DNA from: a virus
DNA length: 25,808 nt
Virus record (IMG/VR): IMGVR_UViG_3300008108_003675
Location: 1-25,808 of that record
Reading direction: 5' to 3' (one strand)
Shown piece by piece: positions 4,885 through 25,706 of the stretch; positions within the stretch are counted from its first letter, which is position 1; each line of letters begins with the position of its first letter. The position numbers and the translations under genes are program-made. The notes under the pieces were generated by a model that searched no databases, was not told the DNA's origin, and worked only from the letters and a program-made list of their open reading frames with translations.

Positions 4885-6014
4885 TGACAACAGTAGTAGT
4901 AGACGGTAATTATATCTTCCATAAGACATTCGGTATATTTTCTGGATTTGGAAGTAAGAACCCTGGAGATGTATTATCATCAGAGGCTGAAAGAAATATG
5001 TTTATAAGAAAGGTGATAACGGATCTTTGCTATTCTCTTAAACAAATACCAGAAATAAAACAAGTGATATTTTGTAAGGATTCTAGATCTTGGAGAAAAG
5101 ATTACAAAATAACAAGAAGTGTTTATAAGGAAAGTAGAGTAAAAGGAGAAGGTGTAGACTGGGGATCTTTTTTTAGATTAATGGACGAGTTTTCGGAATA
5201 TCTAGAATCTAATGGATTTATTTATAGCTCATATCAAGGAGCGGAAGGAGACGATTTAATTTGGGCTTGGTCTGAATATTTTACAGATAAGAAAGAATCT
5301 GTTATTGTAATAAGTGGTGATAAGGACATGCACCAGTTAGTAAAATACAACGAAGATGTTTGGGTTGGAATATGGAACAGTAATTCTAAAAATAACAAAT
5401 TAATTGTTTCTGAAAATTGGAAAGAAGAATCCGAATCAGAAACAACTATATTTGATGTTAATCCTATCTCTGGAGCTAATTCATCAAAGATGGAAAAGCT
5501 ATTATCTTCTTGTACTTTAGAAAGAATTAACACTAAGGAATACATTTTTAAAAAAATCCTAATGGGTGACAAAAAAGATGACGTTCCTGGAGTTTTTCCG
5601 CACCAAACTAAAAGCGGAAAGAATTCTAATATAGCGGAAGGAAAATCTAATAAAATTTGGGAGCTTTATCAGGAGTCGGAATGGAAAGATTATTCGATGG
5701 AGTATCTATGGGATAATGAAGATTTTCTCGGATGGATAGCTGGTCTTTCATTAAGATTAATATCACAAACAGACAACTCTGAGAATAGAGATAAATTTAA
5801 AAAATTCTACGAGGAAAACGCTAGATTGGTTTGGCTTAATTCTAGGACTCTTCCAAAAAATATGGTTGAAGGATTAAAGAATCACGTACAGGAATTAGAT
5901 TCCAAAGAAAAAATCACATTAAATATAGATAAAAAAGAAATGATTGAAAATTCACCATGGGCTAGCGAAGCTAAACCTCCTAAGGGATTTGATCCATTCG
6001 AACTATTTAACTAA
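4884..6014 (+). CDS. rnh: RNase H / 5'-3' flap exonuclease, T4 Rnh-like (FEN family)
   Basis: Removes RNA primers and 5' flaps from Okazaki fragments; the product is sealed by ligase, also encoded here. The metal-binding acidic residues fit the FEN family: Asp7 in VVVDGNY, the GAEGDD cluster (Asp123, Asp124) and SGDKD (Asp146, Asp148). An arginine-rich stretch with WRKDYK lies in between, like T4 YWRRDFAYYYKKNR. Later KKILMGDKKDDVPGV matches the T4 KILKGDKKDNVASV helix-hairpin-helix region. The protein is 376 aa against 305 in T4. The extra length includes a Ser/Glu/Asn-rich insertion at about residues 175-210. The C-terminus PFELFN could be a clamp- or SSB-interaction tail, which is speculative. 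Confidence 0.87.
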   Translation: MTTVVVDGNYIFHKTFGIFSGFGSKNPGDVLSSEAERNMFIRKVITDLCYSLKQIPEIKQVIFCKDSRSWRKDYKITRSVYKESRVKGEGVDWGSFFRLMDEFSEYLESNGFIYSSYQGAEGDDLIWAWSEYFTDKKESVIVISGDKDMHQLVKYNEDVWVGIWNSNSKNNKLIVSENWKEESESETTIFDVNPISGANSSKMEKLLSSCTLERINTKEYIFKKILMGDKKDDVPGVFPHQTKSGKNSNIAEGKSNKIWELYQESEWKDYSMEYLWDNEDFLGWIAGLSLRLISQTDNSENRDKFKKFYEENARLVWLNSRTLPKNMVEGLKNHVQELDSKEKITLNIDKKEMIENSPWASEAKPPKGFDPFELFN

Positions 6015-6415
6015 TGAATAATCCATTTGATATAATAAAATCATTTTATTCCAAAGCTTGGGATAAGATAAGTGATAGAGATAAAGCTAGAAATCTATTT
6101 ATGGTTAATCGTATATGTTCTATAGCATATCCCCTTCAAGCTAATTCATTTAATAATATAAAAATAAATCCCGAAAAAGTAGTAGACTTTTGGAAGATAT
6201 TTATAACACACAAACACAAAAATAATCCATCTTGGGTATGGACAAAAACATCAAAAAAAGAGAAGGAAAAGGAGAAAAAAGAGTATAAAGAAGAAGTTAT
6301 AAACTTCATAAAAGATAAGTATAGTCTATCTAATAGGGAGATAGAAGAACTTAAAATTTTTTTTCCATCTAAATTTAATTCTTTTTATAAGGAGATTGAA
6401 ACTCTAATAAGTTGA
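6014..6415 (+). CDS. 62: Probable clamp-loader small subunit, gp62-like
   Basis: 133 aa. The segment FMVNRICSIAYP followed by NSFN resembles the conserved 'F(I/M)VNR..S..P....AN..N' region of short gp62 proteins in T4-like cyanophages. A 'WxW' plus Lys-rich stretch and a C-terminal 'YSLSNREIEELKIF' helix match the same layout (basic segment, then a short helical tail). gp62 lacks ATPase motifs, as this protein does, and bridges the gp44 subunits. Its position right after the RNase H gene (stop/start overlap TAATG) in the replication block supports the call. Similarity was judged by eye from remembered family patterns, so the assignment is moderate; otherwise it is a hypothetical replication-block protein. 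Confidence 0.55.
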   Translation: MNNPFDIIKSFYSKAWDKISDRDKARNLFMVNRICSIAYPLQANSFNNIKINPEKVVDFWKIFITHKHKNNPSWVWTKTSKKEKEKEKKEYKEEVINFIKDKYSLSNREIEELKIFFPSKFNSFYKEIETLIS

Positions 6416-6432
6416 TTGAGATTTAAAATCCG

Positions 6433-6440
6433 GATATATA
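6433..6440 (+). promoter_or_regulatory. GATATATA promoter-like element upstream of the collagen-like fibre gene
   Basis: The octamer preceded by CCG lies 21 nt before ATG 6462. The same element stands 19 and 20 nt before 15277 and 22263. It lies in a non-coding gap where replication genes give way to virion genes, and it resembles a one-box late promoter such as the T4 TATAAATA. Confidence 0.5.
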
Positions 6441-6461
6441 TTCTAAACATAATATTCCGGG

Positions 6462-10370
<3,909 letters not shown>

Positions 10371-22262: not shown

Positions 22263-23057
22263 TTGAAAAACATTTTAAATTTTTATTCTTGGGTTCTAGA
22301 AAACGAGGAAAGGAGTGATTTTTATAAAAAAGAATTAAATCCGTCATTCTGGAAAAAAATTAGTGAAGATCTTCCCGAAAGTGCTGGAGCAGAAAATTAT
22401 GAATTTGACCAGACACTAAGAAAAAAACTTATTGAGTTAGCTAACGATTTTTATTCATCACTAGGATTCGATCCAGAAATAAGAGATATCCAACTAACTG
22501 GTTCTTTAGCCAACTATAACTGGACAGACAAATCTGATTTAGACGTACATGTTCTAATAGACTTCAATGAGATTGATGATAATTTTACTCTTGTTAAAAA
22601 AGCAGTTGATGGCGTAAGATTTATATGGAATCTTAGACACAAAATAAAAATAAGAGGATTCGACGTAGAATTATACGTACAAGACATCAACGAGCCACAT
22701 ACTGCATCTGGTTTATATTCTTTATTAAATAACGAATGGATCAGAGTTCCTAAGTATAATCCACCAGAGATTGACTACAAAGACGTAGATTTAAAATTTC
22801 AAGGTATCGTTTCAGATATACTAAAGATGGAAAATCTAATGGCAGCATCCGATTTTTCAACCGCTACTGAGGTTGAACTCTATAATCATGCTTTAGAAAT
22901 AAAGAAAAAAATAATGAAAATGCGAAAGGAAGGATTGGAGAGGGAAGGGGAATTTTCCGTCGAAAATCTAGCATTTAAAAAATTAAGAAATGAAGGATAT
23001 ATAGAAAAGATAATAGAGTTAATCTCTAAAGCATATTCAAATATATACAATGAATAA
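22263..23057 (+). CDS. Nucleotidyltransferase-fold protein (Pol beta superfamily)
   Basis: 264 aa, TTG start. TTG was chosen because it gives MKNILNFYSWVLENEE at the expected distance from the promoter element, and no ATG occurs early in the frame. The catalytic layout is LTGSLANYNWTDKSDLDVHV, with Gly80-Ser81 and Asp92/Asp94, and a third acidic position in GFDVELYV (Asp134 or Glu136). These are the hallmarks of the nucleotidyltransferase fold. Similar stand-alone proteins occur in T4-like cyanophages. The substrate could be a tRNA, protein or small molecule and cannot be told here. The C-terminal ~90 residues are charged and helical. The stop overlaps the next start by 8 nt, suggesting co-expression with the virion protein below. 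Confidence 0.8.
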   Translation: MKNILNFYSWVLENEERSDFYKKELNPSFWKKISEDLPESAGAENYEFDQTLRKKLIELANDFYSSLGFDPEIRDIQLTGSLANYNWTDKSDLDVHVLIDFNEIDDNFTLVKKAVDGVRFIWNLRHKIKIRGFDVELYVQDINEPHTASGLYSLLNNEWIRVPKYNPPEIDYKDVDLKFQGIVSDILKMENLMAASDFSTATEVELYNHALEIKKKIMKMRKEGLEREGEFSVENLAFKKLRNEGYIEKIIELISKAYSNIYNE

Positions 23058-24657
23058 TAATAATATGAAAAAAGACATCTACGGCGGAATTAACCCAGTT
23101 TTCGAGAGTTTAAGAAGCTCACTTAACGAAGGAGAAAGAACATCAAGAAAAACAAAAGCTATCGACACAATGACAGCTGTTGTTACTGCTTTAAATACTC
23201 TTTTTAGTTTAATACTATCTTCCAAAATGGAGGATGCTAAAACTGTTAGAGGATTTGAATCTATAAAAAATAAAATTCTGTCAACAGATAATTTTGGATC
23301 TTTTAGACAGTATCTTATTTCTTTTATAGAATCATTAGCAGTATTGGATCCAGGTCAAAAACAAGCTTACGATTCAAACCTAAAAATGATTACTAGTATA
23401 CTAAGCGGTGAAGTAGAAGCTGTTCTAGGAGATCCTAAAATGTATAAGAGTATTAAAAACGATACTATAGCTAAAGTTCTTGAAAACTTCTCTAACGATT
23501 TAAAAGACAGAGAAAATCAGATGAGAAAAACTAATCCTAAACTTTTTGGAGAAGTAATTAAAAAGGGATTGGTAGTTAAAGAAGGTTTATCTGAAAAAAG
23601 AAAAACTGGAGACGAATCTGATGCTACAGAGGGTGAATTTAGAGGACAAGCTTTTAACAAATCTAAGGAATCATTAGATGCAGCAAATTCTTTTGTTGGT
23701 ATGGTAGACAGAGACAAATACTTACCAAATTTAAAGGATAATTCAGATATAAAAAGATACAAAGAAATTGCAGATTCTCTTTATAAAAAAGCACAAGAAC
23801 TACAAATGGTAGACAGAGCAGGTGCTTTAGGAGGAAAAATTGTTACTCCTTCAGGAGAATTTAAAGCTGGCGAATATAAGAGAAAGCAAGACGATCTAGT
23901 AAATGAAATTATTAGACAGAAAAAAGAATACGAAAGATTAAAAGCATCTCTTACTAATATAGAACAACCAGTAACTGCAGATCCTGTTTGTCCTCCAGGA
24001 CAGGTTTACGACAAATCATTAGGAAAATGTGTAGACGTTGCAACAGGTGAAGAAGAAGTTGTTAAGAAGAAAAAGAAAGTTACACCTACACCTCTACCAG
24101 TTAAAGATTGTACATTCCCTGTTAAACTTAATAACAAATGTACACAAATAGGGGATCTTCAGAAAAAATTAATGGAATTAATTCCTTCAGCAAATACATA
24201 TTTAGCAAAATTTGGAGGTCAAGATAAAATATACGGTAAAGGTACTGCAGCAGTAGTAAATATAGTATGGGGATATTTATCAGGTCAATCAGGTCAAGCT
24301 TTAACTTCTGATTTAACTCAGGATATGTACGATCAGTTAATGGCTCTTAATTCTACAGATATAGATACTACATCTATAATTTTTGAAGGAAGTTACGGTA
24401 GATATTATTTTGACGATTTCGAAGAAATGGAAATCGACGAAAAGATCCAAGAAAGAGAAGAGATAAAAGGATCCCCTATTTTATCTTTCGAGGATTTCTA
24501 TTCAGTTATAGAAGAATCATATAGCTTTAGAAAATTAGACGAAGAAAACGTATTTGATAGATTAAGAGGTAAATCTGAAGAAACTCCTGGAGCTAAGGCA
24601 GTAGTTCCAGATCCTAATATAGGAAAGAAAAAAATCGTTGAGGAGCTAAGGCAGTAG
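23050..24657 (+). CDS. Virion-type protein with peptidoglycan-binding-like domain, N-terminal part of a split gene
   Basis: 535 aa as it stands. The last five codons (EELRQ) come from a frame shift caused by a 53-bp tandem duplication. Without it the frame runs on through 25706 to give one 867-aa protein. The N-terminal ~330 residues are helical and charged. A Cys-bearing segment near 315 (VCPPGQVYDKSLGKCVD) precedes a Lys-rich linker, and about 354-440 (TFPVKLNNKCTQIGDLQKKL, then KIYGKGTAAVVNIVWGYL) resembles a PG_binding_1 domain. Such a domain would hold the protein on the cell wall. A role in virion structure or DNA entry is likely but inferred. ATG 23065 is an alternative start. The gene overlaps the nucleotidyltransferase stop. 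Confidence 0.72.
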   Translation: MNNNNMKKDIYGGINPVFESLRSSLNEGERTSRKTKAIDTMTAVVTALNTLFSLILSSKMEDAKTVRGFESIKNKILSTDNFGSFRQYLISFIESLAVLDPGQKQAYDSNLKMITSILSGEVEAVLGDPKMYKSIKNDTIAKVLENFSNDLKDRENQMRKTNPKLFGEVIKKGLVVKEGLSEKRKTGDESDATEGEFRGQAFNKSKESLDAANSFVGMVDRDKYLPNLKDNSDIKRYKEIADSLYKKAQELQMVDRAGALGGKIVTPSGEFKAGEYKRKQDDLVNEIIRQKKEYERLKASLTNIEQPVTADPVCPPGQVYDKSLGKCVDVATGEEEVVKKKKKVTPTPLPVKDCTFPVKLNNKCTQIGDLQKKLMELIPSANTYLAKFGGQDKIYGKGTAAVVNIVWGYLSGQSGQALTSDLTQDMYDQLMALNSTDIDTTSIIFEGSYGRYYFDDFEEMEIDEKIQEREEIKGSPILSFEDFYSVIEESYSFRKLDEENVFDRLRGKSEETPGAKAVVPDPNIGKKKIVEELRQ

Positions 24658-24694
24658 TTCCAGATCCTAATATAGGAAAGAAAAAAATCGTTGA
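24589..24694 (+). repeat. Perfect 53-bp tandem duplication causing a frameshift
   Basis: Copies at 24589-24641 and 24642-24694 are identical (begin GGAGCTAAGG, end AAATCGTTGA). 53 is not a multiple of three, so the upstream frame hits TAG at 24655-24657, while the second copy is in frame with the downstream coding region to 25706. Confidence 0.97.
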
Positions 24695-24809
24695 TAATTG
24701 CGTTAAGAAATCTCTAGAGCAAGGAAAAGTTCTTGATTGCGTTGGTGCTACTGGTGGTGCAACTGGAGAAACTGGTACAACTGGAGAAACTGGCGCAACT
24801 GGAGAAGAA

Positions 24810-25706
24810 ATGAAATGGAAAGGTTTAAAACCAGTAGACGATGGAACATATGCAGTATTATATGACGAAAGCTGGGGAGAATGGTTTGGCGATGTAGCTA
24901 AAGGAGCATTAGTTGCTGGTATTATTATAGGAGTTGGTGTTGCTACTTGGGGAGTAGGATTAGCAATAGCAGCTCCGGGAGCAGTAACAGCAGCAGGAGT
25001 AGCTAGCGGTATAGGTACTGCAGCTACTTTAGGTACCACAGCAGCTGGAGGACTTAGCGCAGCAGCAGGGGCTACTATTTTATGGGGAGGTGGAATAATC
25101 GGAGGAACCACTATAGCAAAATGGGCAGGAAGCGATAGAAAAACTGTCGGAGTATTAGTATTTAATGGATTTATAGAAGAAATTGCAGTTAGAGCAATGG
25201 CTAGAGGTCTATACAACAGCTTAGGTGGTACTGTATCTTCGCAAGACTTATTAGCAATATACTCTACTCTTATTCTTTGTAGAGGTACATTTACTGATAC
25301 AGGAGACGGTAAAGCAGTTTCAGTATGGAGTTTAGTTAAAAGACAATATTCATCATTCGGGGGCGGAAGCTTAGAAGGTGATATAGCTTCTATCACTTCT
25401 GGTGGAGCTGGAGGATTCTTTAAAGATATGGTTACTGATATGGACACTATTCCTTCGTTCCCTAAATCATTTAAAACTAGAAATCCTATCAATGGAACAC
25501 CAATAGAGTTTGAAAACGCTAAAGACGCTTGTGTTGCAGCAGTAGGAAAATTAAATTCTAACGAACCTAAGCTGTCAGAAAATCTTAAATACATAACTGA
25601 AGATGATTTAGAAAAATTATCCGAATCTATGGAAGAAATCACTGATGCAGTTGTAGCAGCAGCTCCGGGAGCTAAAGCTGAAGGAGAAGAAGAATCTGAA
25701 GCATAA
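24810..25706 (+). CDS. C-terminal part of the split virion protein, Gly/Ala-rich membrane-like segment
   Basis: 298 aa from its first ATG, but the same frame is open from 24642 and continues the coding sense of the second repeat copy. It is best read as the rest of the 23050 gene; ATG 24810 is probably internal. Upstream of it lie a Cys-containing stretch and a short collagen-like GATGETG tract. Residues about 30-110 are strongly hydrophobic and rich in Gly/Ala (GALVAGIIIGVGVATWGVGL and on), suggesting two to three membrane-inserting or glycine-zipper helices, as in phage proteins that cross the host membrane during DNA entry. The C-terminal half is soluble and ends in an acidic tail (EGEEESEA). 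Whether it is translated on its own is unknown. Confidence 0.68.
   Translation: MKWKGLKPVDDGTYAVLYDESWGEWFGDVAKGALVAGIIIGVGVATWGVGLAIAAPGAVTAAGVASGIGTAATLGTTAAGGLSAAAGATILWGGGIIGGTTIAKWAGSDRKTVGVLVFNGFIEEIAVRAMARGLYNSLGGTVSSQDLLAIYSTLILCRGTFTDTGDGKAVSVWSLVKRQYSSFGGGSLEGDIASITSGGAGGFFKDMVTDMDTIPSFPKSFKTRNPINGTPIEFENAKDACVAAVGKLNSNEPKLSENLKYITEDDLEKLSESMEEITDAVVAAAPGAKAEGEEESEA

Follow-up and report, generated by a model that had tools for sequence, protein, structure and literature searches.

Small tandem duplications arise by replication slippage, and tandem repeats are a known kind of phase-variation switch. Contigs assembled from short reads, in turn, tend to stop at the ends of words shared between strains. 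The excerpted text of Chen et al. 2020 (PMC7111523) describes a local assembly error in which flanking sequences are joined despite their overlap, in IDBA-UD and CLC assemblies; it gives the largest k as the usual length of contig overlaps, and mends such errors by removing the Ns together with the duplicate sequence. Here we analysed a viral contig of 25,808 nucleotides (IMG/VR record IMGVR_UViG_3300008108_003675, positions 1 to 25,808; hereafter the window) in which the reading frame of a phage gene breaks at a perfect tandem duplication. On the sequence comparisons given below, the second copy is most probably an assembly artefact, an uncollapsed overlap between strain contigs, and the phage gene is most likely one continuous frame of approximately 867 codons, like that of its relatives.

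The duplication consists of two identical, adjoining 53-bp copies at 24589-24694 (Table 1), for which Tandem Repeats Finder reported 2.0 copies of a 53-bp unit with 100% matches and a score of 212; an origin of such a perfect 53-bp tandem copy by chance is far beyond expectation. The length of the unit is not a multiple of three. The upstream ORF stops at 24657 (TAG 24655-24657) after 535 amino acids, and the frame that starts with the second copy at 24642 remains open to 25706. TGA 24639-24641 abuts this second frame on its 5' side, and its earliest ATG, GTG or TTG is the ATG at 24810. Removal of one copy gives a continuous gene of 2604 nt by arithmetic (2657-53). In the coordinates of the copies, the frames and the length of the rejoined gene, and in the presence of a collagen-like GATG tract and a Gly/Ala segment further downstream, our results agree with an earlier note on this DNA, which had described a single interrupted gene and offered three explanations: a recent mutation, a reversible switch or an assembly overlap that was not collapsed. 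We favour the third, because the relatives are continuous, the edges of the unit fall on strain differences, the copies share no matching bases beyond their ends and contig ends lie nearby. The first of the three is less likely, with perhaps a modest minority share of the probability, and the second is without support.

Table 1. Coordinates of the features at the interrupted gene (positions in the window)
Feature	Position	Strand	Basis
First 53-bp copy, read in the upstream ORF's frame	24589..24641	+	sequence
Second 53-bp copy, read in the downstream part's frame	24642..24694	+	sequence
Left edge base: T in the window and L006, C in L014	24588..24588	+	
Right edge base: T in the window and L014, C in L006	24695..24695	+	
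N-terminal 535-aa piece; single ORF in relatives	23050..24657	+	
C-terminal piece, open frame, without a start codon before 24810	24642..25706	+	
Collagen-like GATG/GETG tract	24755..24808	+	
Gly/Ala hydrophobic segment, strain-variable	24930..25090	+	

Protein-guided scans of viral contigs yielded a family set of 18 contigs with the gene, 16 of which span the site. The remaining two lie on either side of it: 3300008114_000084, which is 99.9% identical to the window, ends at 24421, and 3300044949_001675 starts beyond the site. In every one of the 16 spanning contigs, the N-terminal and C-terminal pieces match one and the same open frame; two near-identical pairs (L010/L011 and L029/L030) reduce these contigs to approximately 14 independent lineages, and three (L006, L007 and L017) start within the gene. 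A naturally split gene, with relatives encoding two separate proteins at this point, is what the earlier note had named as evidence against its reading, and this arrangement was found in none of the 16. The closest relative, L014 (3300042398_001385), is 97.2% identical to the window across 8768 alignment columns and encodes the gene as an 866-aa ORF at 6001-8601.

These comparisons also bear on a reversible switch, in which one and two copies would alternate by slippage or recombination and thereby turn the C-terminal part on or off. In principle, a tandem repeat with a unit length not divisible by three could act in this way, and the exact 53-mer does occur as a single copy in two viral contigs besides the window. 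However, these were the only other contigs with the unit and both have one copy, so that copy number did not vary between relatives as it does in phase variation. The 'on' state is the one seen in all 16 relatives, and no conserved repeat is present at the site in any of them. A 28-mer from the two-copy junction had no match in other viral contigs, which is a weak result because records near-identical to the window may be left out. We consider a switch of this kind highly improbable, and it is very doubtful that the two-copy form represents, in part of the population, a reversible off state of the C-terminal half of this phage structural protein with its membrane-like segment.

We also considered whether two proteins are truly made, either from an internal start or by a frameshift at the junction. 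The GGAGAAGAA stretch precedes ATG 24810 and, from a reading of the letters, could serve as a ribosome site, but this ATG aligns to a residue other than methionine (I, V, A or W) in all 14 relatives that have a residue there, the rows of the remaining 2 of 16 being gapped. A shift would likewise find little room, as the -1 frame is closed by TGA 24639-24641 before copy 2 and TAG 24655-24657 follows; only five codons (GAG GAG CTA AGG CAG) remain for a shift, and no slippery heptamer was found between TGA 24639 and TAG 24655. We rejected -1 frameshifting on the A-run at 24628-24634, which the same TGA would stop. As a shift has no evident route and the ATG at 24810 lacks conservation, we consider a designed split unlikely, and the production of two proteins has a very slim chance of being correct.

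We found that both edges of the unit coincide with differences between strains. Aligned with L014, the window has a mismatch at 24588, the base before copy 1, and the next only at 24719. Aligned with L006 (3300031758_008174), it matches at all 46 bases of the left flank and has its first mismatch at 24695, just past copy 2. Between L014 and L006, the bases at 24588 and 24695 differ and all those in between are the same. As the two differ only at its edges, the unit is the maximal exact word common to both strain types at this place. From the local divergence, the joint chance that both edges are variable sites is roughly 0.005, an estimate that assumes independent sites and borrows the left rate of L006 from L014 (46 nt only). 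Under mutation there is no reason for this coincidence. The join is thus placed at a strain branch or contig end, where the strains are other contigs and not the sample's own reads.

The most probable route to the duplication is as follows. Two strains of the phage would have a 53-bp word in common, with one differing base on either side; a contig carrying the left flank would stop at the right end of the common word, and a contig carrying the right flank would start at its left end. The two contigs would then be joined end to end with their overlap left uncollapsed. We infer that both strains were present in the sample and that the join was made in this manner.

The junction itself is of a different type from other tandem duplications in related loci. 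Its copies have zero further matching bases on either side (h=0), so the short homology at unit ends that marks replication slippage was not found. As a control we collected perfect tandem duplications with a period of 25-300 from 109 related loci, amounting to 1,351,883 bases (approximately 1.35 Mb), a total that counts overlapping loci of one contig repeatedly. In each of the 30 distinct others, the period was a multiple of 3 and the copies matched for 2 or more bases beyond their ends. A 36-bp duplication within the window (8697-8771, h=3) is of the same kind as the control set, and the 53-bp unit is the sole exception in the 109 loci, with h=0 and a period not divisible by 3. There was no second blunt duplication in these loci, and the control therefore gives no evidence that the artefact is common.

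The absence of homology also weighs on a genuine duplication, that is, a recent 53-bp tandem duplication in a phage strain by which the gene was knocked out or truncated. The copies are perfect, and such an event would hence be young; they also lie in a linker of variable length in the relatives, with residues 489-524 predicted at a pLDDT under 50. However, slippage would lack flanking homology here, mutation does not predict edges that both fall on strain differences, and the frame is kept at the site in all 16 spanning relatives. We therefore regard a real duplication as unlikely, although a greater prospect than a switch or a split protein. Were it genuine, the phage would carry a natural allele, null or truncated, of an uncharacterised gene beside the capsid protease. 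Unequal homologous exchange between strains was set aside, as an equal exchange at the common word would be expected to leave one copy, not two.

Consistent with an uncollapsed overlap, contig ends are frequent near the site. Four of the 18 family contigs (3300008114, 3300031758, 3300042567 and 3300044949, the start of the last being placed by simple offset) end or begin in the equivalent of 24400-24910, compared with 0.66 expected (Poisson 0.005), for a stretch that was picked after the ends were seen. A likely cause of such breaks is the Gly/Ala segment just downstream, which varies strongly between otherwise close strains. Compared with the window, 3300008114_000084 also has gaps of 77, 18 and 38 nt in a collagen-like gene, which comprises 193 codons in that contig versus 1302 aa in the window, L035 and L037. 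The frame-breaking gaps (77 and 38 nt; L114-L116) are at window positions 6999 and 8935, and the gaps of this contig may be assembly errors too. A published IDBA-UD recipe, 'mink 52, maxk 92', was dropped as evidence: its largest k does not predict 53, and it is not tied to the window.

In L014, the gene sits between a nucleotidyltransferase-like gene and, directly downstream, a head maturation protease (phrog_207, E 1.1e-38). The nucleotidyltransferase-like gene of the window (22263-23057), directly upstream of the broken gene, matches phrog_36119 (E 5.5e-35), a PHROG of unknown function, and its Pfam matches are below the cut-off. The name 'virion gene' in the earlier note is inferred solely from the position directly upstream of the L014 protease. 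Its proposal of a PG-binding-like domain did not hold up either: the one corresponding match was the endolysin phrog_1493 at E 0.076 (residues 336-403), with no Pfam match at the cut-off. Neither of the two window pieces nor the intact 866-aa relative had a significant match in Pfam or PHROGs, and a profile search against solved structures returned a single match, at E 0.41. We found no phage record by tblastn with both window pieces and the distant member L029, and no relative in a scan of genome contigs. An AlphaFold2 model of the intact relative, built from 16 rows, was of poor quality (mean pLDDT 54.9, pTM 0.40), and Foldseek found no match to it in the PDB at E 0.001 or better. As none of Pfam, PHROGs, the structure-profile search, tblastn and Foldseek returned a significant match, a PG-binding or other named domain is unsupported.

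Several further features of this family were observed. The Gly/Ala segment (residues 601-668 of L014) is hypervariable and looks mosaic. The amino acid identity between L014 and L006 is 84% to its left, 31% within it and 92% to its right, and L023 and L029 are 77% identical in the segment versus 43% overall. The segment may belong to a membrane-active part and be exchanged as a module. In L030 (3300014720_000095; L030 10001-10157), the frame of the gene is interrupted by a stop at residue 52, at a distance from the duplication, and the near-identical L029 is open at this residue. Elsewhere in the window, the phage record that best matches a portal-like protein (118-1383) is LR756500, from an uncultured phage of 462 kb (45% identity), and matches in other very large phages are 35-37% identical; because of these matches, the window may derive from a lineage of large phages.

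The locus serves chiefly as a caution: what looks like a split gene in a public viral contig is most likely the product of strains that occur together and of an overlap left uncollapsed. Edges on strain differences, h=0 and a period not divisible by three together provide a simple read-free test for other contigs. Like slippage duplications, the window has a perfect head-to-tail copy that breaks the frame; unlike them, it has no short flanking homology and both of its ends lie on strain differences. Like phase-variable repeats, its unit is not a multiple of three and lies within a coding frame; unlike them, it has relatives without a repeat at the site and no copy-number variants were seen among them. 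The local assembly errors in the excerpted text of PMC7111523 have Ns in the gap, whereas the join here has none, the window holding 0 N. By contrast, the window resembles those errors in that sequence is exactly duplicated on both sides of the join, and in that the join lies where strains diverge and contigs end.
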